A stretch of 44,265 nucleotides of DNA, taken from assembly GCA_023663465.1 (NCBI GenBank), contig JAMPHJ010000009.1, forward strand, positions 1-44,265, written 5' to 3'. This document shows positions 8,813-25,885 of this stretch, piece after piece. This stretch comes from Muribaculaceae bacterium. Lineage in GTDB: Bacteria; Bacillota; Clostridia; Lachnospirales; Lachnospiraceae. The notes under the pieces were generated by a model. It was not told where the DNA came from. It saw nothing but the letters and a program-made list of their open reading frames with translations, and ran no database searches. How positions within the stretch are numbered: the first letter of the stretch is position 1; each line of letters opens with the position of its first letter. A program made the position numbers and the translations under genes.

Positions 8813-9859
8813 TCAAATAATAATCCCCTTCCTACGATATTCTGTGGGCGTCATATGCATTTGCTTCTTGAAGATGCGGATAAAATGTTCTGTCGTCTCA
8901 TAGCCGACCTGTTCGGAAATATTGGCGATTGAGAGATTCGTATCCTGAAGCAGTACCTGCGCCCGCTCTAAGCGTACCTGCTGTAAAATCTGGGTAAAAG
9001 AGCGTCCCGTGGTGGATTTAATCAGACGGGAAGTATATTCCGGCGTATAGTGGAATCTGACGGCAACCTGGTTTAGCGTCACAGTGGTAAAATTATCCTG
9101 AATATATTGAAGCAGAGCGAAGCGTTGAACGTCTGCCTTTTGCATAAAGGTAGGCAGTTCAATGCTTTTTTCATAGTTACGGATTAACAACCCGAATATC
9201 AGCATCAGCGTATAAGAAATCATCTGATCCCAGTAGAGGGACTGATTGATGGATTCCCAGTACATATAGAGGAAACCGCGCTGGATTTCATAATCACTGC
9301 CGGTATGGAAAATGATATAGTCATTCCCGTTTTCAGAATAGATATTGTTCAGAAAAAAGGCAGTCAGGATATTTGGGTTATTCAGAAAGTTAAAAAAGAT
9401 ATTGTGCAGCGTGCTCTTGCGAATCAGGCAGTTGAGGACGATGCTGTCATCAAAGACGCCGATGGAGTGTTTGATGCCGGGCGGAATGATGCAGATGTCC
9501 CCTTTAGATAACGGCTGTTTTTTATTACTGATTGTCTGTTTGCATTTCCCATCATAGACATAAATCAGCTCAAAGAAAGTATGTTCATGGACAATCGGCG
9601 GACTGTAGCGGTTATGCCGCAGGGTAACGATAGAGGCGCGTTTGTCCGCATCGAAATAGAAATAATCTTCATACACGGGAGGTATCGTATTCGGGATATC
9701 CGGTATTAGGAGATGTTTTTCATATACTTTATTCATATCCAGCTCGGCAAGGAACTTCTTCAGGGAATATTCCTGCTGTCTTGCGTAATAATATTTCCGG
9801 TAAATCAATTCTTCTTCATTGAGTTTATAAATCTCACTTTTTAAGGTCTCATAATCCAT
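8813..9859 (-). CDS. AraC-family transcription regulator
   Basis: A 348-residue regulator. Residues about 60-180 form a cupin-like sensor domain (HEHTFFELIYVYDG, LSKGDICIIPPGIKHS). The last 100 residues are an AraC double helix-turn-helix: TLNQVAVRFHYTPEYTSRLIK and ISEQVGYETTEHFIRIFKK followed by TPTEYRR. The start at 9859 is used because GGAGG lies about 8 bases upstream on the minus strand; the frame is open to an ATG at 9922 that lacks a site. It is divergent from the ABC transporter and glycosidase cluster and shares a 320-base region carrying two identical 14-bp repeats. It is the likely local activator of that cluster, sensing a sugar. Confidence 0.92.
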   Translation of the reverse strand: MDYETLKSEIYKLNEEELIYRKYYYARQQEYSLKKFLAELDMNKVYEKHLLIPDIPNTIPPVYEDYFYFDADKRASIVTLRHNRYSPPIVHEHTFFELIYVYDGKCKQTISNKKQPLSKGDICIIPPGIKHSIGVFDDSIVLNCLIRKSTLHNIFFNFLNNPNILTAFFLNNIYSENGNDYIIFHTGSDYEIQRGFLYMYWESINQSLYWDQMISYTLMLIFGLLIRNYEKSIELPTFMQKADVQRFALLQYIQDNFTTVTLNQVAVRFHYTPEYTSRLIKSTTGRSFTQILQQVRLERAQVLLQDTNLSIANISEQVGYETTEHFIRIFKKQMHMTPTEYRRKGIII

Positions 9860-9975
9860 CGTCGTATCCTCCGCCCGGTAAAAGGATCGGTTTATCGTTT
9901 TGTAGGACAGTGCTCGGTACAATAAGATAATCGCGTAGCAATTTTCCTATGTTCTATTCTATCAAAAACCGAAAT

Positions 9976-10053: not shown

Positions 10054-10081
10054 TTGGAAAAGGGATAGGGAAGACTATAAT
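10054..10081 (+). promoter_or_regulatory. Probable promoter of the sugar ABC/glycosidase cluster
   Basis: TTGGAA (10054-10059) is followed after 16 bases by a consensus TATAAT (10076-10081). The poor -35 fits an activator-dependent promoter. The leader to ATG 10180 is about 90 bases, purine-rich, with no clear hairpin. Confidence 0.6.
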
Positions 10082-10179: not shown

Positions 10180-11697
10180 ATGGGAAAAGTAATACTTCAG
10201 GTAGAGCACATGGATAAGCGGTTTGGTTCTACTGTCGCATTGAATGATGTCAGCATTGAGGTCAGGCGAGGGGAAATTCAGGGACTGATTGGCGAGAACG
10301 GTTCCGGGAAATCTACGGTTACTTCCATCATAGCGGGAATGCAGAAGGCGGACAGAGGGGAAATGTATTTAAGAGGCGAGAAATGGGAGCCGCGTTCCAT
10401 GCTCTGGGCGCTGGAAATGGGCGTCGGGATGATTGTACAGGAAAACGGAACGGTTCCGGGCATCACGGTGGCGGAAAATATTTTTCTTGGGGAATCCAAA
10501 CGGTTTAAAGTTCTCGGAAAACGGGGCAAAGAATGGGGAACCGTCAACCGGAAAGCGATGATAGAAGAAGCGCAGGCGGCGTTAGATGCGATAAGCGCTT
10601 CCCATATCCGGGCAGAGCAGCTGACAGCAAGATTGGATATGCAGGATAGAAAGCTCATCGAGATTGCCAGAATCATGAATAAGAAACCGAAGATTCTGGT
10701 GGTGGATGAAACGACGACGGCATTGTCGCAGATTGGGCGGGATATCATCTACAAAATCATGAAACAGATGAAGGAAGAAGACAATGCAGTCATTTTCATA
10801 TCCCACGATCTGGATGAAATCATGAATGTCTGCGATTCCCTCACGGTACTTAGGGATGGAAAGATTATCATTACATTTTCCAAGGAAGAGTTTGATGAGG
10901 AAAAGATTAAGACGAGTATGATTGGCAGGGAAATGCAGGGCGATTACTATCGCAGCGATTATGACGGAAGTTACAGCGACGAAGTGGTCATGGAAGTGAA
11001 GGACGCCAACTTGGGCAATCAGTTAAAAGATTTCAACTTGCAGCTGCACAAAGGGGAAATCTTAGGAATCGGCGGTCTTTCCCACTGCGGGATGCATACG
11101 CTTGGCAAGGTTTTGTTTGGAGCCGAAAAACCGGCAGAAGGCAGGGTTCTCATCCGGGGCAGAGAGCTGAAAAATGAAGCGGACGCCATGAAAGAGCAGA
11201 TAGGATATGCGGCGAAAGACAGGGACGTTGAGTCATTATGCTTAAATGCAAGTATCCGCGACAATATCGCCATCGGCGGTCTGGATTGCTTTTCCATACA
11301 GAATTTCCTGATTCTGCCCGGCAAAGAGAAGAAATATGTGCAGGAACAGATTCAGAATCTGAGCGTGAAATGTGCGGAAATGAATCAATATGTGTCCGCT
11401 TTATCGGGCGGAAACAAACAGAAAGTCGTTTTCGGGAAATGGATTGGAAGAGGGAGTGAAATCCTGATTCTGGACTGCCCCACAAGAGGCGTGGATATTG
11501 GTGTGAAACAGGCGATGTATCAGCTGATGTACCAGATGAAGAAGGAAGGCAAGTCCATCGTCATTATTTCCGAGGAAATGACAGAGTTAATCGGGATGGC
11601 GGACCGTCTGATTGTTATGAAGGACGGGGAAATCAAGAAAGAGTTTCCAAGAAGCGAGTCGCTTAGCGAATCAGACATTATTCAATACATGATTTAG
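10180..11697 (+). CDS. Sugar ABC transporter ATPase, double ABC domain (RbsA/MglA-type)
   Basis: A 505-residue cytoplasmic ATPase with two ABC domains. The first has Walker A GENGSGKST (residues 38-46) and Walker B ILVVDETT; its signature segment (RLDMQDRKLIEIAR) is atypical. The second lacks a proper Walker A (GIGGLSHCGMH), as is usual for this family, but has the signature ALSGGNKQK and Walker B ILILDCPTRGVD. It would power import by the permeases encoded downstream. AAAGGA lies 8-13 bases before ATG. It is the first gene of the cluster under the AraC-family regulator. The sugar is not given by the sequence; the GH78 gene suggests a rhamnose-containing compound. Confidence 0.93.
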   Translation: MGKVILQVEHMDKRFGSTVALNDVSIEVRRGEIQGLIGENGSGKSTVTSIIAGMQKADRGEMYLRGEKWEPRSMLWALEMGVGMIVQENGTVPGITVAENIFLGESKRFKVLGKRGKEWGTVNRKAMIEEAQAALDAISASHIRAEQLTARLDMQDRKLIEIARIMNKKPKILVVDETTTALSQIGRDIIYKIMKQMKEEDNAVIFISHDLDEIMNVCDSLTVLRDGKIIITFSKEEFDEEKIKTSMIGREMQGDYYRSDYDGSYSDEVVMEVKDANLGNQLKDFNLQLHKGEILGIGGLSHCGMHTLGKVLFGAEKPAEGRVLIRGRELKNEADAMKEQIGYAAKDRDVESLCLNASIRDNIAIGGLDCFSIQNFLILPGKEKKYVQEQIQNLSVKCAEMNQYVSALSGGNKQKVVFGKWIGRGSEILILDCPTRGVDIGVKQAMYQLMYQMKKEGKSIVIISEEMTELIGMADRLIVMKDGEIKKEFPRSESLSESDIIQYMI

Positions 11698-11709
11698 GAG
11701 GGAAAGAGG

Positions 11710-12669
11710 ATGAACGGGAGAACAATCAAGAAGTACATTATGAATTTAACCCCTCTTTTTGGATTAGTTGCATTATTTGCAGTGTTCATGATACTTGGAA
11801 CGTCGAGGGACATCAATATTTCCTATGGTCTGAAAAGTATCGTCAACCAGTCCGTAGTCGTAGCGGTAGTCGCTACAGGAGCGATTTTCATCTATACGCT
11901 GGGTTCTTTTGATATCAGTCTCGGCGCATCTACCGCAGTCAGCGCGCTTATCGGCGGGATGGTTTATCTCAAGACGGAAAATATTTTCCTCATGCTGCTT
12001 GTCAGTGTCGGTGTGGCGGTCTTGGTGGGGCTTTTAAACTCAGTCCTTGCCTCGGTGTTTAACTTACCGGTGTTTGTCACGACGATTGCGATGTTGAGTG
12101 TGTTAAACGCCCTTGTCCTGGTCCTGATTAAGATAAACGGGACGGGTTCTGAAATCGCGGTTCCGGCAGCAGCGGTAAAAGCGTTGAACAATACGACCTT
12201 TAAAATAGTGGTATTAGCGGTATTTGTTTTATTCAGCATCTTTATCTTTAGTTTTACGAAAGTCGGCAGAATGCAGAAATTCCAGGGCGGAAATCCGGTT
12301 TGTGCCAAATTGAGCGGTATTTCCGAAAAGAAAATGGCGATTATCGCATTCGTCATGTCGGGTATCGGCGTAGGTCTTGGAGCGTTTCTTTTCATTATCT
12401 ATGCGCCCACGCTGACAAGAAACACGGCTTCCAGCGTCGGTATGGACGTCATCATCGCAATTGTATTCGGCGGTATGCCGGTATCGGGCGGCGCGAGAAG
12501 TAAGATTTACGCGGCAGTGATTGGGGCATTTTCCATGACGCTGTTGAGTCAGATTATGGTAATGTTCAATCTCAATTCGGGAATTGGACAAATGGTAAAG
12601 GCGGCAATCTTTATCCTGGTTGTATTCTTGGCGACCAGCGACCAGAGAGGAAAAATGCTGCCAAGGTAA
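11710..12669 (+). CDS. Sugar ABC transporter permease (RbsC-like), first copy
   Basis: A 319-residue inner-membrane protein with 8-10 hydrophobic segments. It has the family elements YTLGSFDISLGAS, where ribose-type permeases have a GGIDLSVG-like segment, and IVFGGMPVSGGARSK, the cytoplasmic loop that meets the ATPase. It starts 12 bases after the ATPase gene behind AGGAGGGAAAGAGG. A second permease lies after the binding protein, so the membrane pore may be a heterodimer. Confidence 0.9.
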   Translation: MNGRTIKKYIMNLTPLFGLVALFAVFMILGTSRDINISYGLKSIVNQSVVVAVVATGAIFIYTLGSFDISLGASTAVSALIGGMVYLKTENIFLMLLVSVGVAVLVGLLNSVLASVFNLPVFVTTIAMLSVLNALVLVLIKINGTGSEIAVPAAAVKALNNTTFKIVVLAVFVLFSIFIFSFTKVGRMQKFQGGNPVCAKLSGISEKKMAIIAFVMSGIGVGLGAFLFIIYAPTLTRNTASSVGMDVIIAIVFGGMPVSGGARSKIYAAVIGAFSMTLLSQIMVMFNLNSGIGQMVKAAIFILVVFLATSDQRGKMLPR

Positions 12670-12729
12670 CGGATTCGGTATTTCGCGGGGACGCTTAATA
12701 CATAAAAATGAAAAAGGAGGAACTATCTA

Positions 12730-14028
12730 ATGAAAAAGTTTTGGGCATTATTGCTTACAGCAGCGATGGCAGTATCTATGTTGACCGGCTGTGGGAGCAA
12801 CGGTTCAGAAGGAAATGGAACAACAGAGGGTAACACAAACAGCGCAGCTGATACAGGGGCGCAGACAGACGGGGCGGACGATGCTGATACAGCAGACGAC
12901 GGCGGAGCGGATATAGCATCCGGTTTGGATATGAGCCAGACCGTCAAAATGGGTATTCTTGTATCGGACGCAACAAGTGCAGAAGCATTGGCATTTCGTA
13001 ATTATTACACAGAATATATTCAGAAACAATATAATGTGGAAATGATTTATTCTGACGAATTGACGGACGCAGCAGGGGAAACATCGGCAATCGATACATT
13101 TATCACCAACAATTGTAAAGCGATTATCTCTTTTTCCTCTTTCGACCGTGCAGCGCAGCTGGAACAGTGCGATGCGGCTGGCGTTTACTATGCGGTAGCA
13201 ACCGGAACGCTGACAGAAGAAGAGTATGAGACCTACAAAGGATATGAGTATTATGTAGGCGCAATCGGTCCTTCCCTGGATGTGGAATTTGAAACCGGTT
13301 ACAACATGGCAAAACACTACCTGGATCAGGGTATGAAGAACTTCGCAATCTTTGGCGGCGCGATTCCGTATTACACGGAAATGCATATCTATCGTGCAGC
13401 AGGTATGTTGAGTGCTATGGTAGAGGCAAGCGGCGCAGATTATCAGGGAGCGGCGGATAAAGGCGCGATTATCGGACAGATTTTCACAGACGGCGAAGTA
13501 AAGACCGGCGCAATCGGCGATATCAATGTCCTCGGTTATGTGGGCGGATACGATATGGACGATGCATGGTTTGGTAAATGTGCGCAGATGGCGCAGACAG
13601 CAGATTTGGAAGTGATTCTGGCAGTCGGGAATGGTTCAGACTTCTTCGGAACCGCGATTGCTGGAACAGACGTAAAAATTGCCAGTGTAGACGCCTATGC
13701 AAGCAGCTACGGCGAAGCGATGGAAGCGGGAATGTTGGATTATCTTGCAGGTAAATTCTCTGCAAGCATCGGACCTATCTTTCTTGCAACTTACAGGGCA
13801 GCTCTTGGCTCCCCGGTTCGTACAGCAGACGGTAACGCGCTTGCATTAAGCCAGGGTTACTGGGTAGCGACCAGCGCAGATGAATTTAATACTTACTATG
13901 CAGTGGACAGCAGCGTGGACTCCCCGGCATATACGAAAGACATGCTGGATACGTTATTAGGCGCAGATTATGCGGCATTTGAGAGTTTTGTAGGCAAATA
14001 CAGCTTTGAAGAAATTCAGGGAATGTAA
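12730..14028 (+). CDS. Sugar ABC transporter substrate-binding lipoprotein
   Basis: A 432-residue secreted lipoprotein. The signal peptide ends at LTGC (cysteine about residue 21), the lipid attachment site. A 40-residue linker rich in Gly, Asn, Thr and Asp follows, then a periplasmic-binding fold beginning VKMGILVSDATSAEA. It resembles the clostridial DUF3798-type binding proteins more than classical RbsB. A strong AAAGGAGGA site precedes ATG. It sits between the two permease genes and is followed by a GC-rich hairpin. The ligand is unknown but probably the sugar handled by the glycosidases downstream. Confidence 0.88.
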   Translation: MKKFWALLLTAAMAVSMLTGCGSNGSEGNGTTEGNTNSAADTGAQTDGADDADTADDGGADIASGLDMSQTVKMGILVSDATSAEALAFRNYYTEYIQKQYNVEMIYSDELTDAAGETSAIDTFITNNCKAIISFSSFDRAAQLEQCDAAGVYYAVATGTLTEEEYETYKGYEYYVGAIGPSLDVEFETGYNMAKHYLDQGMKNFAIFGGAIPYYTEMHIYRAAGMLSAMVEASGADYQGAADKGAIIGQIFTDGEVKTGAIGDINVLGYVGGYDMDDAWFGKCAQMAQTADLEVILAVGNGSDFFGTAIAGTDVKIASVDAYASSYGEAMEAGMLDYLAGKFSASIGPIFLATYRAALGSPVRTADGNALALSQGYWVATSADEFNTYYAVDSSVDSPAYTKDMLDTLLGADYAAFESFVGKYSFEEIQGM

Positions 14029-14040
14029 GAGAGAAATTTA

Positions 14041-14080
14041 CACAGGAGGCAGGCGGAGAACGCTCCGCCGCCGCCCTGTG
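14041..14080 (+). other. GC-rich stem-loop inside the transporter operon
   Basis: CACAGG (14041-14046) pairs with CCTGTG (14075-14080), enclosing GGCGGAG (14052-14058) that pairs with CTCCGCC (14063-14069). There is no T-run, so it is not a full terminator. It follows the binding-protein stop by 12 bases, a position where such structures commonly protect the upstream mRNA and give more binding protein than permease. Confidence 0.75.
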
Positions 14081-14122
14081 GTAACAAATTTTGCAGGTTG
14101 AGAGAAAGGCATGGTTATTAAT

Positions 14123-15118
14123 ATGAAGACAAAGAATAATGATATGTTGAAAAGAATCGTGGGAACGGCGGCAATTCCTGTAGCAACCTTTCTGATTGTA
14201 CTCATACTGTGCAGCGTACAGGGCGTGAAATTATTTGAAACAGAAGGAAACTGGGTTTTGTTTTTCCGTGCGGCGGCGTCGGTCATGCTGACAACCTTTG
14301 CGCTGTCGTTAAATTTAAACAGCGGAAGATTTGATTTTTCCATCGGGTCCGTATCGTTGTTATCTTCCGTAATCAGCGCTTCAATCTGTACATCGGCGGG
14401 ACTTCCCACGGCGGCGATGCTGGGGATTTCCATTGTATCCGGCGCAGCGCTTGGACTGATATCCGGTTCGATATATGTTATCGTAAAACTTCCGCCGATT
14501 ATCGTATCGCTGGGTGTGGCGCTGTTTTATGAAGGGCTTGCTTTTGCCATCACGGACGGGTACGGCATTTCCTTTGTGGCGAATACGGAATTAACAAGTT
14601 TTCCAAGCGTTATCAATTATGTGCTTGTCATTTTAGTCGGGTTGTTTGTTTTTATCTTTCTTTTTGACTATACGCAGTTTGGTTATGAATATAAGGCGCT
14701 TGTTTCCGGTCAGAAAGTATCGGTAAATACGGGAATCAAAGAAATTCCCAATGCAGTTTTTTGTTATACGATTTCAGGCGCGCTCATGGGAGTCGTAGGA
14801 TTTATGAGTGCAACCAATACGGGAACCATTCAGATGGCTTTGAATTTCGGTTCCATCGGCGTGATGTTTACGGCGTTCCTTCCCATGTTCATCGGCGGTT
14901 TTATCGGAAGGTTCTGCAATGAAAAAATCGGGTATCTGCTGGGAGCCGTGACGACGGCGTTTATATCCCTGATGTATGCAAGACTGAATGTGAACGCATC
15001 GATTCAACAGATTGTAACGGCATTGATTTTAGTATGCTTCCTGATTTATCTGAATAACGAAAATAAAGTGATTGAATTAGTCACATTGAAGAAATATATC
15101 AAATCGAAAACAAAGTAG
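14123..15118 (+). CDS. Sugar ABC transporter permease, second copy
   Basis: A 331-residue polytopic membrane protein of the same family as the first permease, with LSLNLNSGRFDFSIGS near the N-terminus and an MPMFIGGFIGRF loop in the C-terminal half. ATG 14123 is preferred because AGAAAGG lies about 14 bases upstream; the in-frame ATG at 14111 is only one base from that site. The start region AAAGGCATGGTTATTAATATG is nearly the same as three other starts in this window. A second, divergent permease suggests a two-subunit channel. Confidence 0.85.
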   Translation: MKTKNNDMLKRIVGTAAIPVATFLIVLILCSVQGVKLFETEGNWVLFFRAAASVMLTTFALSLNLNSGRFDFSIGSVSLLSSVISASICTSAGLPTAAMLGISIVSGAALGLISGSIYVIVKLPPIIVSLGVALFYEGLAFAITDGYGISFVANTELTSFPSVINYVLVILVGLFVFIFLFDYTQFGYEYKALVSGQKVSVNTGIKEIPNAVFCYTISGALMGVVGFMSATNTGTIQMALNFGSIGVMFTAFLPMFIGGFIGRFCNEKIGYLLGAVTTAFISLMYARLNVNASIQQIVTALILVCFLIYLNNENKVIELVTLKKYIKSKTK

Positions 15119-15165
15119 TCTGCGGTTTTACTGTCGAAGGCTGCGGGAAAGGCATGGTTATTAAG

Positions 15166-15801
15166 ATGAAATATGAAGCGGTGATTTTTGACTTAGACGG
15201 GGTGATTTGCTTTACGGATAAATATCATTACCAGGCGTGGAAAAAGATGGCGGATGATATGGGCATCTATTTTGATGAAACGATTAACAACAGACTGCGG
15301 GGCGTAAGCCGTATGGAAAGTCTGGATATTATCTTAGAAAACTACGATAAAGAGCTTTCCTTGGAAGAAAAACAGAAACTGGCGCAGAGCAAGAACAGTC
15401 TCTATGTCGAGCTGCTTAGCCAGATGTCGGAAAAGGATTTGTCTACGGAAGTAAAAGAAACGCTGGACGCTTTGCGGGCAAAGGGATTACGGCTTGCGAT
15501 TGGCTCTTCCAGCAAAAATGCAAAATACATATTGGAACGGTTAGGGCTGAAAGATTACTTTGATGCTGTAAGCGACGGGACGAATATTACGAAATCGAAG
15601 CCGGATCCGGAAGTTTTCTTAAAAGCGGCGGAATTTCTAGGAAAAGAACCGGGGAAATGTCTGGTAGTCGAAGATGCAAAGGCAGGAGTAGAAGCGGCCG
15701 GAGCAGGCGGATTTGACAGTGCGGGCTTAGGCGAGGCGGCATCCTGTGGGGAAGCCACATATGGGATGGAAACGTTTAGCGATTTAGTGAAAATTGCCTG
15801 A
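15166..15801 (+). CDS. Beta-phosphoglucomutase-type HAD phosphatase/mutase
   Basis: A 211-residue HAD-superfamily protein. Motif I is VIFDLDGVICFTD with two aspartates; GSSSKN is motif II, TKSKPDPEVFLKA holds the motif III lysine, and VVEDAKAGVEAA is motif IV. The cap domain and the SKPDPEVF/EDAKAG pattern match beta-phosphoglucomutase (PgmB), which converts beta-glucose-1-phosphate to glucose-6-phosphate. Here it may act on a sugar phosphate released during glycan breakdown. ATG 15166 is preferred over the in-frame ATG at 15154, as in the previous gene. It lies in the middle of the cluster. Confidence 0.85.
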   Translation: MKYEAVIFDLDGVICFTDKYHYQAWKKMADDMGIYFDETINNRLRGVSRMESLDIILENYDKELSLEEKQKLAQSKNSLYVELLSQMSEKDLSTEVKETLDALRAKGLRLAIGSSSKNAKYILERLGLKDYFDAVSDGTNITKSKPDPEVFLKAAEFLGKEPGKCLVVEDAKAGVEAAGAGGFDSAGLGEAASCGEATYGMETFSDLVKIA

Positions 15802-15836
15802 TAGCCGGAAATGGTGACAGAATGCGAGGGAAAATT

Positions 15837-17522
15837 ATGGATTTGAAGAAAAAACCTTTTTGTTTAAGCGACGCGGATATCGCATGGGTGGACAAAACAT
15901 TGGAGCAGATGACTCTGGAAGAAAAAATAGGCGCCCTGTTCTGCCCGATTGGATACTCTACGGAACCGGAATATCTGGACAGGATGCTGGGTTTTCATAT
16001 CGGCGGTCTTTTCTTCCGCGACGGTGTCGGCAGTGAAATGAGAAGAACATTTGAGTATGCGCAGACCCATTCCCGGATTCCGTTGTTGATTCCTTCCAAT
16101 CTGGAAGCGGGTGGGGACGGCGCGGCGACGGACGGAACGCCTTACGGAAAACAGATGGCGTGCGCGGCAGCCGGCGATAAGAAATATGCCTACAGGCTGG
16201 GAAAAATCGCTTGTAAGGAGGCGTCGGCGCTGGGGATTAACTGGGCGTTTGCGCCAGTGGTGGATATTGACAGGAATTATCACAATCCGATTACCAATGT
16301 GAGAACTTATGGCGATGACCCGGAGATGATTTATGCATGTGCGAAAGAATACATGCGCGCAGCGACGGAGTGTAATATGGCGGTGGCCATCAAACATTTT
16401 CCTGGAGACGGCGTGGATGAAAGGGATCAACATCTTCTGACATCCGTTAACAGCCTGTCTATGGAAGAGTGGGATGAGACTTATGGGACGATTTATAAAA
16501 GACTAATTGACGATGGGGCGTTAACCTTTATGGCAGGGCATATCGCAATGCCGGCTTATCAGGAACATTATAATCCAGAGATGAGGCATAGAATTGTCCC
16601 GGCCACTTTGTCAAAGGAAATCTTACAGAATCTACTGCGGGACAAGTTAGGCTTTAACGGTCTGATTATCACGGACGCAACGCCGATGGTGGGCTTTACT
16701 GCGGCGATGGCGAGAAATCAGTCTGTACCGCTTGCGATTGAAAGTGGCTGCGACATGTTCTTATTTAATAAGGATTTGGAAGAAGACTATCAATTCATGA
16801 TGGACGGCTATAAGAACGGCATCTTATCAGAAAAACGTCTCATGGAGGCAAATAGAAGGATTCTGGCGCTGAAGGCGGCATTAAAGCTGCATGAGAAGAG
16901 CGCGGCAGGTACCTTGGTGCCGCCGGAAGAGAGTCTCTGTGTCTTAAAAAGCAAGCAGCATATCGCCTGGGCGAAAGAACTGGCGGACGCATCGATTACG
17001 CTGGTTAAAGATACGCAGAAGTTGCTTCCGATAAGCGCACAGAAATATCCTAGAGTCTTACTGGAAATTTTGGGGGATTTCCCATCCAACGACAGGGTTT
17101 TGAAACAGACCAGGACCGCCTTGGAACAGAAAGGATTTCAGGTTTTCGTCTATGAAAAAGAAAACTTCGAGGTCGGCGTCGATAACGTGAAAAGTTTTAA
17201 AGAAAAATACGATATGGTCATCTATATTGGCAATGTCGAGAACGCAAGTAATAAGACGACGAACCGGTTAAATTGGTACACTTTCTGGGGACAGGGAAAC
17301 AATGTGCCCTGGTTTGTACACGAGGTTCCGGTGTTATTTATCAGCGTGGCCAATCCTTATCATCTCTTAGATGTGCCGATGATACAGACCTATATCAACT
17401 GTTATTCTAACAATGAATATGTACTGGAAGCGGTTGTAGGGAAGATAACCGGAAACAGTGAATTTAAAGGAAAAAGCCCGGTTGACGTATTCTGCGGAAG
17501 GGACGAGTTACAATATTGTTAA
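15837..17522 (+). CDS. Glycoside hydrolase family 3, NagZ-like
   Basis: A 561-residue intracellular glycosidase without a signal peptide. The N-terminal barrel has AFAPVVDID, then KHFPGDGVDERDQH (about residues 186-199). The Asp-x-His at the end of that loop is the feature of the NagZ-type beta-N-acetylhexosaminidase branch, where it is the acid/base pair. The nucleophile is the aspartate of LIITDA (about residue 280). The C-terminal part is an alpha/beta domain. GAGGGA 8 bases upstream supports ATG 15837; an ATG at 15822 has no clear site. Together with the GH78 gene it suggests a mixed glycan containing hexosamine or glucose and rhamnose. The precise sugar cannot be read from the sequence. 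Confidence 0.85.
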   Translation: MDLKKKPFCLSDADIAWVDKTLEQMTLEEKIGALFCPIGYSTEPEYLDRMLGFHIGGLFFRDGVGSEMRRTFEYAQTHSRIPLLIPSNLEAGGDGAATDGTPYGKQMACAAAGDKKYAYRLGKIACKEASALGINWAFAPVVDIDRNYHNPITNVRTYGDDPEMIYACAKEYMRAATECNMAVAIKHFPGDGVDERDQHLLTSVNSLSMEEWDETYGTIYKRLIDDGALTFMAGHIAMPAYQEHYNPEMRHRIVPATLSKEILQNLLRDKLGFNGLIITDATPMVGFTAAMARNQSVPLAIESGCDMFLFNKDLEEDYQFMMDGYKNGILSEKRLMEANRRILALKAALKLHEKSAAGTLVPPEESLCVLKSKQHIAWAKELADASITLVKDTQKLLPISAQKYPRVLLEILGDFPSNDRVLKQTRTALEQKGFQVFVYEKENFEVGVDNVKSFKEKYDMVIYIGNVENASNKTTNRLNWYTFWGQGNNVPWFVHEVPVLFISVANPYHLLDVPMIQTYINCYSNNEYVLEAVVGKITGNSEFKGKSPVDVFCGRDELQYC

Positions 17523-17589
17523 AAATTTAACAGGCAGACTAGATACACTTATGCGAACAAAAAGAGTTTAAACGAAGGAATGAGAGAAT

Positions 17590-20145
17590 ATGAGAATAGA
17601 ACATCTACGAGTCAATCACTTAAAAAACCCATTGGGGTATGATTTCCCCTATTTGACGCTTTCCTGGAAAGTAAGAGATGCGGCGGCGCATTTTTTGGAA
17701 GAAGTGCGTATCGTCATATCCCAGAGCGAGACAATGGACTCTTTTGTTTATGACAGTGGTATCCTGCATGATTTTAGAAGCTGCCAGTTGGAAGTAGAGA
17801 TGCCGCTACAGCCACGGACACGCTATTTCTGGAAAGTCTTTGTAACGGCGGATGACGGAAAGGAAAGCGCAGAAAGTGAGGTAGCATGGTTTGAGACGGC
17901 GAAAATGGAAGAGCCCTGGGAAGCATGCTGGATTGCGGCTCCGGAAGACAGGGAGAGAATGCCGGTTTTATACCGCTCTTTTTCTATCGTAGATACCTTG
18001 AAGAAGGCGCGGCTCTATAGTTTCGGCGCAGGATTATATGAAGTGGAAGTAAACGGTACAAAAGTGGGGGAAGAATACCTGCTTCCGGGCTATCATTCCT
18101 ACGATTTGCTGTTAGAATATCAGACCTTTGATTTGACGGACTATCTGCGAAAAGGTGACAACTGTGTCAGTATTTCCCTGGGGGAAGGCTGGTATAAAGG
18201 CAGGTTTGGATTTGACGATGTCTATCTGGATTTATATGGGGAAAGAAAAAAATGCATTGCAGAGCTATATCTGGAGTATGAATCGGGACGGATTGAGCGG
18301 ATTGATACGGATGGAAACTGGCAGGCGAAAGCAGGCAATATTCTGGGAAACGGAATCTATGACGGGGAATGTCAGAATGATTTGCTTGCGCCTATGTCCC
18401 TTACAGTGGAAGTATTACAGGATGATACTTTCCTGTTGACGGCAAGGTCCAATCCGCCCATTCATAAAGTGGGCGACTATGCGCCTGTATCGGAAAAAGA
18501 GCATCCGGACGGCTATCTGCTGCTGGATTTTGGCAAAAGTATCACCGGCTGGGTGGAATGGCAGGGGAAGTTAGATAGCGGACAACAGATTCGTCTGCAA
18601 TACGGCGAAGTGTTGCAGAACGGTGGTTTTTACCGGGATAATCTAAGGACGGCAAAGGCGGAGTTTGTCTATACTTCCGATGGAAACGAGAAGACGGTAC
18701 GCCCGCACTTTACCTATTATGGCTTCCGCTATGTCAAAGTCGAGGGGTTAAAGGAAGGGCAGAAACTAACGTTTCGGGCTTATCGCCTCATGTCCGATAT
18801 CGAGAGAACCGGCTTTATCGAGACTTCCGATACGAAGATAAATCAGTTATTTGAAAATACCCTGCGTTCCCAGAAATGTAATTTTCTGGATATTCCTACC
18901 GACTGCCCCCAGCGGGATGAGCGCATGGGATGGACGGGGGATGCCAATATCTTTGCGAATACGGCTTGTTTCCATATGGACAGCAGCGCCTTTTTCCATC
19001 ATTATACAAGGAGTCTGCATTTAGAACAGGGGTTGGGCAATGGAGCGATTCCTTTCTTTTCCCCTAGACCCAAGGTCCCGGTGAATGAGCGGACGAATCC
19101 TTTTTATCTGGATACCGGCGCATGTATCTGGGGCGATGTGGCAGTCATGCTTCCCTGGACGCTCTATCAGTACTATGGCGATAAGGCGCTTCTTAGGGAA
19201 CAGTACCCGATGATGAAAGAATGGATCGAATATGTCAGAGGACGTTCTAAAGAAAACGAAATTCCGTTTCTATGGCAGAACGATAGGCAGTTAGGGGACT
19301 GGCTGGCGTTAGATAACGGCAATATTCATAATCCGGTGGGGAAGACGGACGCTGGTTTTCTTGCCTCAGCATGTTACTATCAGTCTACGCTGACGCTGGC
19401 GCAGGCGGCGGAGGCATTGGGACTGGCGGAAGCGGAAAAATACCGGGAGCTTTCGGAAAAGATTAAAAAGGCGTTTATCGGCTTCTATTTTACGACAGAC
19501 GGAAGGCTGAAAATTGATTTGACCCAGACGGCATGCGCCTTTTTACTACATATCGGGCTTTATCCCGAACATGCGGCAGAAAAGTTAAAGGCAGATTTAA
19601 AACGTCAGATAGAAGAAAACCAAGGGCATCTGAATACCGGTTTTCTTGGAACGCCGATTTTATGTCTGGCACTATCAGATAACGGGTGTAATGATTTATC
19701 CTACGATTTGCTTCTCAACGAAGAATATCCGGGCTGGCTCTATGAGGTGAATCTGGGAGCGACTACTGTCTGGGAGCGTTGGAACTCATTAGGCGAGGAT
19801 GGCGTAATAAGCGGTACGGGGATGAACAGCCTGAATCATTACGCTTATGGAAGTATTGCGGACTGGATGTACCGGTATATGTGCGGATTCCAGCCGGCGA
19901 TGGGGCAGGATATCCCGATGACGATAAGACCCATGCCGGATACGAGATTTTCTTTCGTAAAAGGACGCTGGGAGTCTGTATTTGGGACGTATGTAAGCGG
20001 CTGGCATTATGAAGAGGGGACGGGTTTCCAATATGAGATGGAAATTCCTTTTAATACAATAGCAAATGTTATTTTACCAAATGGAAAAAAACATCGCTTA
20101 GAAAGCGGAATATACAGGTTTGATAAGGATGGGCAGATCCTTTGA
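17590..20145 (+). CDS. Alpha-L-rhamnosidase, glycoside hydrolase family 78
   Basis: An 851-residue intracellular enzyme that releases terminal alpha-L-rhamnose. The N-terminal part is a fibronectin-like domain (RVNHLKNPLGYDFPYLTLSWKV begins the usual GH78 opening) and a beta-sandwich with GLYEVEVNGTKVGEE and SLGEGWYKGRFGF. The catalytic barrel carries PTDCPQRDERMGWTGDA near residues 436-452, the family hallmark with the acidic residues of the active site, and TTVWERWNS near 725. A C-terminal beta domain ends the protein. No signal peptide is seen, so substrate is probably imported by the ABC system first. It ends inside a 10-bp inverted repeat before the GGDEF gene. Confidence 0.93.
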   Translation: MRIEHLRVNHLKNPLGYDFPYLTLSWKVRDAAAHFLEEVRIVISQSETMDSFVYDSGILHDFRSCQLEVEMPLQPRTRYFWKVFVTADDGKESAESEVAWFETAKMEEPWEACWIAAPEDRERMPVLYRSFSIVDTLKKARLYSFGAGLYEVEVNGTKVGEEYLLPGYHSYDLLLEYQTFDLTDYLRKGDNCVSISLGEGWYKGRFGFDDVYLDLYGERKKCIAELYLEYESGRIERIDTDGNWQAKAGNILGNGIYDGECQNDLLAPMSLTVEVLQDDTFLLTARSNPPIHKVGDYAPVSEKEHPDGYLLLDFGKSITGWVEWQGKLDSGQQIRLQYGEVLQNGGFYRDNLRTAKAEFVYTSDGNEKTVRPHFTYYGFRYVKVEGLKEGQKLTFRAYRLMSDIERTGFIETSDTKINQLFENTLRSQKCNFLDIPTDCPQRDERMGWTGDANIFANTACFHMDSSAFFHHYTRSLHLEQGLGNGAIPFFSPRPKVPVNERTNPFYLDTGACIWGDVAVMLPWTLYQYYGDKALLREQYPMMKEWIEYVRGRSKENEIPFLWQNDRQLGDWLALDNGNIHNPVGKTDAGFLASACYYQSTLTLAQAAEALGLAEAEKYRELSEKIKKAFIGFYFTTDGRLKIDLTQTACAFLLHIGLYPEHAAEKLKADLKRQIEENQGHLNTGFLGTPILCLALSDNGCNDLSYDLLLNEEYPGWLYEVNLGATTVWERWNSLGEDGVISGTGMNSLNHYAYGSIADWMYRYMCGFQPAMGQDIPMTIRPMPDTRFSFVKGRWESVFGTYVSGWHYEEGTGFQYEMEIPFNTIANVILPNGKKHRLESGIYRFDKDGQIL

Positions 20146-20165
20146 AAGAAACGTACTTTCAAAGG
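20139..20165 (+). other. Inverted repeat over the rhamnosidase stop
   Basis: CCTTTGAAAG (20139-20148) and CTTTCAAAGG (20156-20165) form a perfect 10-bp stem with a 7-base loop; the TGA stop is inside the left arm. No T-run follows. A second hairpin comes right after it. These may adjust transcript level between the enzyme genes and the signalling genes. Confidence 0.65.
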
Positions 20166-20173
20166 AAGGACCG

Positions 20174-20193
20174 TTATCCGGTGAAGCGGATAA
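20174..20193 (+). other. Small hairpin next to the ribosome binding site of the GGDEF gene
   Basis: TTATCCG (20174-20180) pairs with CGGATAA (20187-20193). The right arm touches the AAGGAGAG site for the next gene, so folding could reduce its translation. It is the second of two hairpins in this 61-base gap. Confidence 0.5.
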
Positions 20194-20206
20194 GGAGAGA
20201 ATATTT

Positions 20207-22096
20207 ATGAAGATTGCTGTACTTGTGGGCGGGATTGCATATGAGACGCAGCGGCGTCTGTTAGAAGGGATTACCCAGTATGCAGAAGAGAAAAATATCA
20301 GTATTTTTGTATTTACCTGTAACGGGGACATTTACAAACAGTCAGAATACGGCATGGGGGAATTTCAAATCTTTCATTTGCCGGACTTAAACCGTTATGA
20401 TGGGATTATTTTCGCCAGGGATACGATTCAGAGTGAGCAGTTTGCGGCGGATATCACGAAGCGGATTGAGGAATCGGGAGTGCCGGCGGTCAGCATTGAA
20501 AACGATATTCCGGGGATGCCGGTCTATTATGTGGACAACAGGGAAGCGATGCGGGATATGGTAACGCATGTTATTGAAATGCACGGTGCGAAAGATATCT
20601 GTTATCTGTCAGGACCTAAGCAGAATCCCGAAAGCGCAGAACGCTTAAAGGGCGCGCAGGACGCCATAGAAGCGCATGGGCTGAAACTGCCAAAAGAGAG
20701 GCTTTTTTATGGAAATTACTGGATAGACAGCGGCAAAGAGCTGGTGGATACGCTGATGAAGCAGGCGGAGGAGCAGGAAAAGATGCTGCCGGACGCCATT
20801 GTCTGTGCCAACGACGATATGGCGCTGGGAGCCTATATCGAGCTGAACGAGCGCGGCGTCGAGGTGGGAAAAGAGATGATCCTGACCGGATACGACCATA
20901 CGTCGGATGCCACGAATCTTTCCCCCAAGATTACGACCGTCGAGAAGCCCCAGGCGCAGATTGGCTACGAAGCCTGTAAGAGCCTTGTGGAACATGCCGG
21001 GGAAACCCGAATCGGGAAGCAGATAGAAAGCCGGAAATTCAAGGTAAAACATTTTTACCGCGGAAGCTGCGGGTGTCAGGACCATAAGAAAAGGAAACTT
21101 TCCAAAGTGCAGTTGAAAAATTTGCAGCAGAAACTGGAAATCTTCAACATAGCAGAAATCAATAAAAACATGGTATCCGACTTAAACGACTGCGATAATC
21201 AGCAGGATTTCTATGAGTGTCTGAAGGAGTATATCGCGCAGCTGGATTTTTCCTTCCTCTATCTGTGTCTCTGCGAGGACAAAGATGCGGAGGATAAGAC
21301 GGAATACAGTTATCAGATTCATGAAAACTATTCTGAGCAGATTTATATTCCGGTTGCCTATGAGGAAGGCGTTTTTACCCAATATCCCTATTTTGCCTGT
21401 AAAGATTTGCTTCCGCAGGAATGCATGGATAAAATCGGCAGCCAGCTATGCATTGTGGCGCCGGTTCATTTCCGCAAAAACTGCCTCGGCTATCTGGTCA
21501 TGTGCGGAAGCGGACTTCCCTTTAACAGCACGCAGTTTCAGATGTGGCTGATGAATATTTCAAATGCCTTAGAGAACATCCGCAAACAGACGGAGTTAAA
21601 ACGCCTCGTCAAGAAACTCAACAGCGTCTGGATGTTAGACAGTCTGACCCAGATTTACAACAGAGCCGGATTTTTCCACTTTGCGGATAAGCTGCTAAAG
21701 GAGTGTAAGAAACATGAAACGCCAATCGGAATGCTTTTCGTGGATATCAATAAGCTAAAGCGTGTGAACGACGGTTTCGGGCATGAAGAGGGCGATTTCT
21801 ATATCAAGACCGTCGCCGACTATCTGAAAAAACTGAAAAACGACGGACAGCTTCTGATGCGCTATGGCGGGGATGAATTTGTGGTTTTGGGCGAGTTTGT
21901 GACAGGGGAAGAATTTAAAAACCTGTTAGAAAAATTAAACCCGGAACTTGCCCTATGCAGACAGCAGCATCAGAAACCCTACGAAATGAGCGTGAGTATC
22001 GGCTTCCAGTCGGTATCGATGACGCAGGATTTCCAGCTGGATGAGCTGATGAAACAGGCGGACCAGGAAATGTATACCATGAAAAAGAAAGGATAG
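20207..22096 (+). CDS. Soluble LacI-type sugar sensor fused to diguanylate cyclase (GGDEF)
   Basis: A 629-residue cytoplasmic protein. Residues 1-300 are a periplasmic-binding/LacI-type sensor without a helix-turn-helix: [38 protein letters not shown], and a C-lobe with [19 protein letters not shown] and [12 protein letters not shown] middle section of about 150 residues resembles a GAF-like or linker region. The C-terminal domain is an intact diguanylate cyclase: [27 protein letters not shown] and YGGDEF (GGDEF at 554-558). No clear RxxD inhibition site is seen before it. No membrane segment is visible, so it should sense an imported sugar and make cyclic-di-GMP. ATG 20207 follows AAGGAGAG; the frame is open further upstream without a site. 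Confidence 0.88.
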
Positions 22097-22103
22097 ACGA
22101 AGG

Positions 22104-23849
22104 ATGAAAAAAGGCGTATCGATTCAGGTAAAAGTTATGATTAGCATGTTCATTATTTTGGCGGCGGTACTGTTTAATACCTTCTTCACCAATGCCAATC
22201 TGGGGAATATTGAACAGTCGGCGGCACAGATGAACCAGATTTATGTCCAGATTCAGAAGTTGTATGGAAATATTGGAAAAAGAGTCGAGATGATACAGAA
22301 GTATGCGAATATTTTAGTGGGCAGCTCCGATGACGACTTAGTCATTGCGGGCGATATCTACGGGCAGCTGGATAGTGAAATGACGACGGTCAAAGGGCTG
22401 CTTGTAGAGCTTGGGGATTACGCCCGGATGACGGAAAATGAAGAATTAATTGCCCTTTTTGCGCAATACAGCGACGGATGCGACGTTTTGCTGGATAGTA
22501 TGCAGACCCTCAGCCAGATTCGGAAAGAGGGCGATATGGCAGGCGCCAAGATGTATCTGGGGACAGAAGCGTTAGCCATTATTCTTTCCCAGGAGCAGGT
22601 GTGCATCGATTTGGAAGCAGCGTTTGATATCTGTCTGGCGGACGCCCAAAAAAGTCTGGAAGGGCGCATCAATATTGCGGAAAACAGCAGTCTGGCAGTT
22701 TCTATCATCAGTATTTTAAGCATTCTCTTTTCCCTTATCATGTGTTATAAGGATATGCTGCAGCCCATGAAGAAACTGAGCCTGAAAGTACAGCAGATAG
22801 CGTCCCGGATAGCGGAAGGAACCTGCGATTTGACCGAGCGGATGCCCACCAGGAGAAACGATGAAATCGGACAGCTGATGGCAAGCATGAACCTGCTCTT
22901 AGAAGCCTTTTTAAAGCTTACTTATAAAGTCCAGAAAACAACCGCATATATGGAGGAAGCGGCGAACCGGACCAAGGTGCAGTTTGCGACGTCCAATGAT
23001 AAAATAAACGATTTATCGGCAGTCATGGAAGAACTTTCGGCGGGCAGTGAAGAGGTTTCCACCCTTGTAAACCAGATGAAGGGAAAGATGCAGGAAATCG
23101 CCGGTCAGACGGGCGATATTACGGGCGAAGTAGAACAGGGAAGCAGCTTTGCCGCAGATTTACGGGAACGGGCAGGATATATCCGTAGTAAGACCACGGA
23201 AAGCAGGAAAAATTCAGAAAACATGGTCGGAACCATCAAAGAGACGATGTCGAAGAGCATCGAAGAAAGCCATAGCATTAACCGCGTGAACGAACTGACC
23301 AACACGATTCTGGAAATTGCTTCCCAGACCAACCTGCTGGCGTTAAACGCCGCCATCGAAGCGGCAAGGGCAGGGGAGGCCGGCAAAGGATTTGCGGTCG
23401 TGGCGGAAGAAATACGCGCCCTTGCGGATAATAGTAAGACAAACGCCAGCGCCATCCAGGAATTGAATAACAAGATTATTGAAATCGTCCAGTCCTTATG
23501 CGCGTGCAGTGAGAAGATGCTGGGATTTGTGGATTCCGATATTATGGAAGATTATAAAAACTTTGAGAACATGTCCATCCAATATGCCGATGATGCGGAC
23601 GCAGTATCCCAAATCATGGAAAAGATACAGGGCAGCGTAGATCATATCAATCAGCAGATTTTTAGTGTGACCCAGAATATCGGCGGTATTTCATCCTCGA
23701 TGGAGGAAAGCACGCAGGGAATCCAGAACGTAGCCCAGAATGTGCTGGATATTTCCAATACCACCAATGAGATTTACCGGGAAACCTGTGAAAATACCAA
23801 GGTGACGACAGAGTTAAAGCATGTTTCGGCAGGATTTGTCGTGGAATAA
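22104..23849 (+). CDS. Methyl-accepting chemotaxis protein in the glycan cluster
   Basis: A 581-residue chemoreceptor. A first membrane segment lies at about 8-30, an extracellular four-helix-like region to about 195, then a second segment ([19 protein letters not shown]) near 197-216. A HAMP-like region follows, then the signalling domain with the conserved tip [20 protein letters not shown] near residue 410 and [11 protein letters not shown]. It begins 7 bases after the GGDEF gene, so the two are co-transcribed and probably work in one signalling response. The ligand may be a sugar or a bound sugar-binding protein; this is inferred from position. Confidence 0.92.
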
Positions 23850-23883: not shown

Positions 23884-23913
23884 TTTACATATCCCCCCTC
23901 AAAGCGATATGAT
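23884..23913 (+). promoter_or_regulatory. Probable promoter of the sufC/sufB-like pair
   Basis: TTTACA (23884-23889), an 18-base spacer and TATGAT (23908-23913), each one base from consensus. It lies 75 bases before the sufC-like start, downstream of the chemoreceptor gene, so the Fe-S genes probably have their own transcript. Confidence 0.6.
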
Positions 23914-23988
23914 AATGTAGATGTGAAATAAGCGCTAAAGCATAGAGAGTGGTGCACTTTCAACTATAAGATGACAGAGGTATGGATT

Positions 23989-24744
23989 ATGCTGGAATTA
24001 AAGAAGATATCTTTTGAGGTATCGGGGGAAGATAGGAAAGAGAGCCAGAAAGAAATCGTCAGGGATATCAGCCTGACGGTAGAGGAACGTAAGTTCGTGG
24101 TTATAACCGGACCCAACGGCAGCGGAAAGTCGACCCTTGCCAAATTAATCGCAGGAATCGAGAAGCCGACCAGCGGACAGATTTTTTTGGATGGCATCGA
24201 TATTACGGATACAGGCATTACCGAACGGGCGAAAATGGGAATCGGCTTTGCCTTCCAGCAGCCGGTGCGGTTTAAAGGACTGGAAGTGCTGGATTTGTTA
24301 CGGATTGCATCGGGCAGGAATCTGTCGGCGTCGGACGCCTGTGAATATCTGGCGGAAGTGGGGCTTTGCGCCAGGGATTATATCAAGCGGGAGGTCAACG
24401 CAAGTTTGTCCGGCGGCGAGCTGAAACGCATCGAAATCGCAACCGTTCTGGCAAGGGAAAGCAAATTGTCCGTTTTTGACGAACCGGAAGCCGGCATCGA
24501 CCTCTGGAGCTTCCAGAATCTGATTCAGGTCTTTGAGCGATTGCAGAAGCGGGATAAAGAGGGGTCTATTATCATCATTTCCCATCAGGAACGGATTCTG
24601 AATATTGCGGATGAGATTATCGTGCTGGCGGATGGCAGGATTGCCGACAGAGGGGCGAAAGAAGAGATTTTGCCGGGACTTTTAGGGACGCCTTCCGCCA
24701 TCAGCCAGTGTACGGGGAATGAAGGCAGAAAGGAGCGGTTGTAA
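23989..24744 (+). CDS. SufC/SmsC-like ATPase for Fe-S cluster assembly
   Basis: A 251-residue ABC ATPase of the SufC type. Motifs are Walker A GPNGSGKST (residues 41-49), a Q-loop in FAFQQPVRFKGL, the signature LSGGELKR, Walker B LSVFDEPEAGIDLW and a switch histidine in IIISHQERI. FDEPEAGID is characteristic of the SufC branch rather than of transporters, and no permease gene is nearby. It forms a two-gene unit with the SufB-like gene 2 bases downstream, the minimal arrangement described as the SUF-like minimal system in anaerobes. ATG 23989 follows AGAGGT at about 8 bases; an in-frame ATG lies at 23971. Confidence 0.9.
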   Translation: MLELKKISFEVSGEDRKESQKEIVRDISLTVEERKFVVITGPNGSGKSTLAKLIAGIEKPTSGQIFLDGIDITDTGITERAKMGIGFAFQQPVRFKGLEVLDLLRIASGRNLSASDACEYLAEVGLCARDYIKREVNASLSGGELKRIEIATVLARESKLSVFDEPEAGIDLWSFQNLIQVFERLQKRDKEGSIIIISHQERILNIADEIIVLADGRIADRGAKEEILPGLLGTPSAISQCTGNEGRKERL

Positions 24745-24746
24745 CC

Positions 24747-25667: not shown

Positions 25668-25680
25668 AATTTGTTTTACG

Positions 25681-25809: not shown

Positions 25810-25885
25810 AATAAGGGTATGTCAAATTTCATTGCAATTCTATGCAAAATCATTAAGGCAGAAAGTGCGAAGAAAGGGGTTATCT

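Follow-up and report, generated by a model that had tools for sequence, protein, structure and literature searches.

The subject of this analysis is an operon at positions 10180..23849 of the window, that is, the whole 44,265-bp stretch represented by contig C182 (JAMPHJ010000009.1) of a Lachnospiraceae draft genome (GCA_023663465.1; 3.15 Mb, 182 contigs, 86% completeness). The operon comprises nine genes on the + strand, in which an ATP-binding cassette (ABC) importer and three enzymes of sugar degradation are followed by a diguanylate cyclase with a LacI-type binding domain (LacI-GGDEF) and by a methyl-accepting chemotaxis protein (MCP), designated MCP1. In our reading, which we regard as likely, the operon imports rhamnosylated beta-glucosides and degrades them intracellularly, with MCP1 acting as a dedicated receptor and LacI-GGDEF as an internal sensor of the same substrate or of a product of it. 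The gene content, the gene order, their conservation and the close partnership between the MCP sensor and the operon are the parts of this picture that can be read in the sequence itself.

Organization of the operon

Window proteins were annotated with Pfam and NCBIfam, and membrane segments by a simple hydropathy scan. A preliminary description of this DNA had reported an ABC transporter, enzymes and two signalling genes lying in the same direction with small gaps, and gene calls and Pfam place all of them as described, with successive gaps of 12, 60, 82, 35, 20, 67, 61 and 7 bp. The order that it gave for the enzymes, glycosidases and then mutase, has to be amended, as the mutase in fact precedes both other enzymes. 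The nine genes are as follows.

10180..11697, + strand: ABC importer ATPase, RbsA/AraG-like, two nucleotide-binding domains (Pfam ABC_tran, two stretches)
11710..12669, + strand: ABC permease 1 (Pfam BPD_transp_2, over the cut-off)
12730..14028, + strand: putative substrate-binding lipoprotein (N-terminal lipobox-like LTGC, place in the operon)
14111..15118, + strand: ABC permease 2 (Pfam BPD_transp_2, over the cut-off)
15154..15801, + strand: beta-phosphoglucomutase (TIGR01990, 239.6 bits against a curated cut-off of 189.4)
15822..17522, + strand: glycoside hydrolase family 3 (GH3) enzyme, probable beta-glucoside phosphorylase (match to 5vqd)
17590..20145, + strand: glycoside hydrolase family 78 (GH78) alpha-L-rhamnosidase (five Pfam rhamnosidase domains)
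20207..22096, + strand: LacI-type binding domain, linker and GGDEF diguanylate cyclase (Pfam Peripla_BP_3, GGDEF)
22104..23849, + strand: chemoreceptor MCP1, with a transmembrane (TM) segment, an outer sensor of ~160 residues, a second TM segment, HAMP and the MCP signalling domain (Pfam HAMP, MCPsignal)

The importer carries the marks of the CUT2 (ribose-type) class, an RbsA-like double ATPase and two BPD_transp_2 permeases, and by these sequence features it is CUT2-like. The AraG and RbsA models match the ATPase over nearly their full length, under the equivalog cut-offs (best NCBIfam AraG, 374.9 bits, cut-off 689). The lipoprotein stands where a CUT2 importer would have a Peripla_BP_4-type binding protein, but it has no Pfam match and no sequence match in the PDB better than E 0.1. 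The window's gene set is found again in other genera, and this recurrence, set beside the 21 places with an MCP domain above the cut-off in the 3.15-Mb genome, indicates that the grouping goes beyond chance.

Conservation across related operons

In the genome_contigs collection, LacI-GGDEF proteins at 71-98% are encoded in 11 loci, and in 10 of them an MCP gene comes next, at a distance of 7-8 bp. GH78 precedes the cyclase in nine of these loci (in L072 it reads as two frames), while the remaining two are cut on that side. What follows the MCP differs: an FGGY kinase, RhaA and a class II aldolase in L069, with L070 and L072 alike by their first residues, and a kinase, another isomerase-like protein and an aldolase-like protein in L068. 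Indeed, rhaB, rhaA and rhaD-type genes lie after the MCP in L069 and L116 and beyond an AraC gene in L113, thus placing the signalling genes within a catabolic cluster in some relatives. In general, the flanks of the block vary while the block stays whole. Both the constant spacing of cyclase and MCP and the rhamnose genes behind them uphold the earlier view that the operon includes the signalling genes.

A census of related operons was taken with the binding lipoprotein, a query that is neutral as to the signalling genes. At E 1e-30 the lipoprotein is found in 23 of 397 family genomes (at most four candidates scored per genome) and in 8 of 77 genus genomes. Matches with at least 43% identity were retained, which gave 22 distinct operons, the window included; those of G065 and G134 each lie on two contigs joined by inference. 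Both signalling genes are present in nine operons (window, G432, G246, G156, G079, G067, G069 twice and G065), of which G246 shows the MCP start only, and the MCP alone is present in six (G364, G340, G238, G391, G134 and G078), the MCP of G238 being split into two frames. The absence of the cyclase is uncertain in G340, where the contig ends after the MCP, and in G134, where it breaks before GH3. In G450 the LacI-GGDEF gene is seen with the 3' end cut off, and in G011 the signalling region is not visible. The MCP thus occurs in 15 of 22 operons (15 of the 20 that can be judged) and LacI-GGDEF in 10 of 22 (10 of 21, none being seen in the other 11). A rhamnosidase accompanies the importer in 20 of 22 operons, as GH78 in 13 and as a second type in seven, while the remaining two operons are truncated; four of the seven second-type enzymes were scanned in Pfam, giving Glyco_hydro_78_N and a six-hairpin domain. 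Ten of 24 lipoprotein matches, with 29-35% identity, were dropped. Nine of these, all except that of G430, were inspected by eye, and eight of the nine resemble other transporters.

The sensor of MCP1

The hydrophobic segments of MCP1 (residues 3-33 and 191-219) enclose the outer stretch of about 160 residues, and the protein has the layout of a methyl-accepting chemotaxis protein, with two TM segments, HAMP and the MCPsignal hairpin. The outer domain has no Pfam match. The sensor (residues 1-215) has matches in the operon MCPs of G364, G391, G238 and G156, and a comparison with the 20 further MCPs detected in the window's genome gave no match at E 10 or better; this comparison covered 22 MCP loci, that is, 21 distinct genes with MCP1 included, one of them a 262-residue fragment. 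Residues E62, Q65-K66-Y67, N69, Y122, D144, G153 and E164 are invariant over seven sensors. Weak sensor matches to other MCPs of the window's genome are those of the L171 sensor with own_L191 (E 0.0015) and of the L119 sensor with own_L201 (E 0.00025), the latter from a comparison lacking 11 of the 22 own-genome MCP loci.

A profile built from the seven sensors gave 48 matches in the 397 family genomes, with at most seven candidates scored per genome, and the best eight (at least 68.7 bits, the window's own included) are all linked to the operon, that of G134 by inference. Matches 9 to 20, all inspected, do not lie beside this transporter as far as the contigs reach; among them, the receptors of G378 and G412 stand at contig ends and that of G387 lies near what appear by eye to be other ABC permeases. 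In all, the best 20 of the 48 matches were inspected. Since the sensor type is tied to the operon and has no match among the other MCPs of its own genome, MCP1 is very probably dedicated to the substrate of the operon, and we read the pattern as a receptor type that was probably inherited together with the importer. The preliminary description had proposed that frequent occurrence of the last two genes away from the operon would speak against a common function. For the MCP sensor the eight best matches favour linkage, but the LacI-GGDEF family often lies elsewhere (31 copies at 30 loci).

The LacI-GGDEF cyclase

The listed start of the cyclase gene is TTG 20120, but the most likely start is ATG 20207, which is preceded by the ribosome site aaggagag. 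The protein begins directly with the binding fold. Neither a helix-turn-helix motif (Pfam) nor a hydrophobic or transmembrane segment is found, thus it should be soluble. The active-site motif is intact (RYGGDEF), and among 13 nearly full-length sequences of the two operon-linked clades described below GGDEF is present in 12 and GGDEY in L124. No RxxD inhibitory I-site precedes the GGDEF motif at the usual distance; the site is an optional feature and its absence is not decisive. In the LacI domain, Arg 146, Asn 202/Asp 203 and Asp 230 do not vary among 11 sequences, the window included, and these are positions that we take to be effector contacts in LacI-type proteins.

The 31 LacI-GGDEF copies outside this transporter operon are followed by an MCP gene in two of the 28 cases with a visible next gene (the 30-locus survey did not include G036:C49, G021:C5, G001:C31 and G049:C14). 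The two cases are in G339 and on contig C98 of the window's own genome, and they suggest that LacI-type cyclases and MCPs were probably brought together more than once. The C98 locus (L047:1479-8125) carries on one strand a permuted GH3 gene with the C-terminal domain first, a LacI-GGDEY gene and a dCache MCP. In a tree from which the incomplete L042, L043 and L038 were left out, the operon-linked proteins fall into two clades, each with 100/100 support; the expectation of a single clade was therefore not borne out by the tree itself, yet monophyly is not rejected (p-AU 0.199). The operon label on this tree also took in L073 and L077, neither of which is seen in this transporter operon.

Other settings of the family are worth recording. 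In L126:8206-19445 two tandem LacI-GGDEF genes lie upstream of genes that by eye look like flgB, flgC, fliE, fliF and fliG. In L127:6500-9909 a gap of 20 bp separates a LacI-GGDEF gene from the following gene for a bacterial sugar transferase (Bac_transf), through which the output could be exopolysaccharide. In L122:8772-19284 (G340:C27) a LacI-GGDEF gene (32%) stands last in a series of genes that includes a GH3-like glycosidase and a different ABC transporter (BLAST, by eye). Finally, in G026:C69, found via a GH3 search, a LacI-GGDEF gene is truncated by the end of the contig.

An alternative that we consider rather unlikely, though the best placed of those weighed here, is that the MCP is dedicated to the substrate while LacI-GGDEF serves another end, such as general sugar-status or feedback control, and was recruited for its expression timing only. 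The cyclase is indeed patchier than the MCP among the 22 operons, and its relatives lie beside other catabolic sets (L077, L038 and L122) as well as unrelated genes. However, the two fully supported clades of operon cyclases, with a single clade not rejected (p-AU 0.20), are the pattern that a sensor tied to the substrate should give, and the importer tree requires four changes for the cyclase against five for the MCP.

Observations that weigh against a common function

Several observations weigh against a receptor and a cyclase dedicated to the substrate of the operon. As for gene content, neither signalling gene is present in five of the 22 operons (G034, G283, G107, G333 and G176), nor at G064:C98 and G022:C4, which were found via GH3, nor in G413, one of the dropped matches, which has the ATPase (56%), GH3 (47%) and a mutase. 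In L073 the cyclase has no MCP next to it, and the operon MCP of G340 lacks this sensor type. GH3 itself is absent from the operons of G333 and G391 and is only partly seen in that of G134. In G078 the cyclase was lost and the MCP retained: the interval from GH78 to the MCP (L113:6262-6304, approximate) still reads QADREMYEMKQKKG, which resembles the last codons of the window cyclase and stands right after the GH78 stop, a remnant indicating that the cyclase was deleted there. LacI-GGDEF is thus a looser partner than the MCP and is dispensable in this lineage, and the enzymes can work without the signalling genes, as the five operons devoid of both also indicate.

As for the sensor search, the profile already held the receptors of the window, G432, G364, G391 and G156, so that the linked matches from outside it are only G134, G238 and G246, and G238 had been found before. 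The G134 receptor lies on a second contig and is tied to the operon by inference across the contig break. The G246 receptor is cut by the contig end and scores 68.7 bits over 74 positions, against 67.2 bits for the first unlinked match; its low score is explained by the cut. With at most seven candidates per genome, weaker or further copies may have been missed. As for expression, a second promoter-like site (9/12), besides the one ahead of the operon, lies within the 3' end of GH78 (20033-20060) and could drive the last two genes alone; the number of promoter-like sites in the window is close to that expected by chance (39 against 26.3, standard deviation 6.2).

Taken further, these observations would make the signalling genes mere passengers, an ordinary sugar operon standing before a generic chemoreceptor and cyclase to which it is joined by shared descent only. 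Near relatives do share long stretches by descent, and this reading would also accommodate the operons that lack both genes and the many LacI-GGDEF homologues at unrelated places. We consider it improbable, since the block is intact among relatives though their flanks differ, the catabolic genes follow the MCP in L069 and L116, and the sensor type is still the same in G156, G246, G364, G391, G238 and G134, whose binding proteins are only 44-70% identical.

Enzymes and probable substrate

The GH3 protein matches the solved beta-glucoside phosphorylase 5vqd with 485.7 bits over residues 8-560 of 566, and the two have in common the stretch KHFPGDGVDxRDQH, the region of the His/Asp dyad. In the review PMC8950772, GH3 enzymes with this dyad are described as retaining phosphorylases that yield beta-glycosyl phosphates. 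Of the 22 related operons, 17 have loci in which this stretch can be read, and in an eighteenth a single residue of it is ambiguous. The GH3 protein is thus a probable beta-glucoside phosphorylase, and the requirement of its product, a beta-glycosyl phosphate, for a beta-phosphoglucomutase explains the adjoining mutase gene. The earlier mention of two glycosidases therefore holds for the rhamnosidase, assigned to GH78 by family, but for the GH3 protein the best match is a phosphorylase. That GH3 is instead an ordinary, N-acetylglucosaminidase-like hydrolase acting on a wall or host glycan rather than a plant glucoside is very unlikely, for although it has weaker NagZ-type hexosaminidase matches (NCBIfam PRK05337, 110 bits, under the cut-off of 207), the runner-up among solved chains, a NagZ-type lipoprotein, reaches 178.3 bits against the 485.7 of 5vqd, and both the neighbouring mutase gene and the widely conserved dyad stretch speak for a phosphorylase.

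Neither GH3 nor GH78 has a membrane segment in the hydropathy scan or a signal peptide by eye, so that breakdown is probably intracellular and directed at small imported glycosides rather than at a polymer. For the substrate, called a glycan in the preliminary description, rhamnosylated beta-glucoside is probably the better term, as the gene content fits a small glycoside. Indeed, a GH78 rhamnosidase together with a GH3 phosphorylase and a mutase points to rhamnosylated beta-glucosides as the probable substrates, the likeliest class being plant diglycosides of the rutinoside type. Two loci of the LacI-GGDEF family suggest plant compounds as the substrate class. L077 (9209-17395) combines LacI-GGDEF (59%) with a mutase, GH3, UbiX-like and UbiD-like proteins and a BD-FAE-type esterase, and looks like a phenolic glycoside cluster; L038 encodes an apiosidase-like protein with GH1, GH3, GH78 and GH43.

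The mutase also occurs in fused open frames elsewhere, with a rhamnosidase in L170:9447-11576 and with a metallo-beta-lactamase-fold protein in L114:12144-13640.

Proposed mechanism

In the proposed scheme, the lipoprotein-dependent ABC importer would take up a rhamnosylated beta-glucoside, from which GH78 would cleave off L-rhamnose. Phosphorolysis of the beta-glucoside that is left, by the GH3 enzyme, would then yield beta-glucose 1-phosphate, and the beta-phosphoglucomutase would convert this to glucose 6-phosphate. Outside the cell, the outer domain of MCP1 would most likely be contacted by the loaded binding lipoprotein, in a Trg-like manner, or by the sugar alone. Inside the cell, the LacI domain may read the imported sugar or a product of it and alter the activity of the GGDEF domain, thus changing the level of cyclic di-GMP (c-di-GMP). 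The genome encodes flagellins (4 places), MCPs (21 places) and PilZ proteins (2), and the flagellins and PilZ proteins could carry out the effect. We infer from the genes the identity of the substrate, the docking of the lipoprotein on MCP1, the direction in which c-di-GMP changes and the consequences for swimming or attachment.

A more specific version, which we put forward tentatively and consider possible rather than probable, is that one substrate is read twice: the cell would swim towards it through the MCP, and upon import the LacI cyclase would raise c-di-GMP and thereby make the cell halt and remain in place. Equally tentatively, such an arrangement could be a self-contained circuit that travels with the catabolic genes.

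Upstream region and neighbouring genes

Two further features lie ahead of the operon.

8813..9922, - strand: AraC-type regulator, divergent, likely regulator of the operon (Pfam HTH_18, AraC_binding, Cupin_2)
10054..10081, + strand: promoter-like site TTGGAA-16-TATAAT (consensus scan, 10/12 matches)

The AraC-type gene is likely to regulate the operon, and a divergent neighbour of this type is also present in L079, L112, L113, L164, L165, L166, L168-L171 and L174. In the aligned intergenic regions before the ATPase gene (window and five relatives), the -10 box TATAAT is the same in six of six and the -35 box TTGGAA in five of six. A horizontally acquired cassette of odd composition was also considered and gave no sign, the GC content over 10-24 kb being 0.45-0.48 within a window range of 0.39-0.51.

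Downstream, an extension of the operon into the SufC/SufBD genes and a second MCP gene (MCP2) was rejected. A promoter-like site (23884-23913) lies in the 121-bp gap after MCP1, for which no terminator-like site is listed, and among the mapped relatives these genes stand next to MCP1 only in the near-identical G079/L064, thus they are not counted as parts. The pair at 23971-25667 encodes a SufC-like ATPase and a SufBD-core protein and is preceded by a promoter-like site and followed by a terminator-like site at 25680, and the second MCP (25832-27430) has several membrane segments and no HAMP match. A protein with an HD_5 domain at 38751-39908, possibly a cyclic-nucleotide phosphodiesterase, is unlinked to the operon.

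Relation to known systems and significance

In Escherichia coli, the ribose and galactose binding proteins dock on the chemoreceptor Trg, which is encoded outside the transport operon. The window resembles these systems in combining a CUT2-like importer with a two-TM HAMP chemoreceptor whose outer sensor is of similar size, but its receptor is encoded in the transport operon and the sensor domain has no Pfam match. A polysaccharide utilisation locus of Gram-positive bacteria consists of a glycosidase, a transporter and a regulator. All three are found in the window, which differs in adding chemoreceptor and c-di-GMP genes and in its probably intracellular enzymes, with no secreted enzyme seen. 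In Sphingomonas sp. A1, the pectin-binding protein SPH1118 is described as serving both uptake and chemotaxis (PMC7055323, PMC9314435), a double use of a single binding protein that is proposed for the window as well. That system differs in its Gram-negative host and polysaccharide substrate, and no diguanylate cyclase is named in the parts of the two papers considered here. The GH3 protein is similar over its full length to the beta-glucoside phosphorylase BglP/BglX (5vqd; PMC8950772) and has the His/Asp dyad in common with it. It differs in lying inside a rhamnoside operon beside a beta-phosphoglucomutase.

No sugar operon with its own chemoreceptor and its own cyclase was found in the literature searched, which consisted of titles and the beginnings of abstracts, with subscription journals and preprints mostly outside. 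A binding protein common to an importer and to chemotaxis is already known, and the apparently new part is the operon with a receptor and a cyclase of its own. On the sequence evidence, its anatomy and conservation are firm, and its ligands and output are proposed with the graded probabilities given above.

To our knowledge, few chemoreceptors have known ligands and few diguanylate cyclases have known input signals. In this case, a probable class of ligand for MCP1 and for the cyclase alike is suggested by the operon itself. The MCP sensor type, with its QKYxN signature and no Pfam match, can be used as a probe for such operons. If the cells do seek the substrate and settle on it, the circuit would stand in a family that is widespread in animal guts and for which the literature searched offered little on c-di-GMP, GGDEF proteins and motility. 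All in all, these results suggest that some Lachnospiraceae may navigate towards rhamnosylated glycosides and may settle there.

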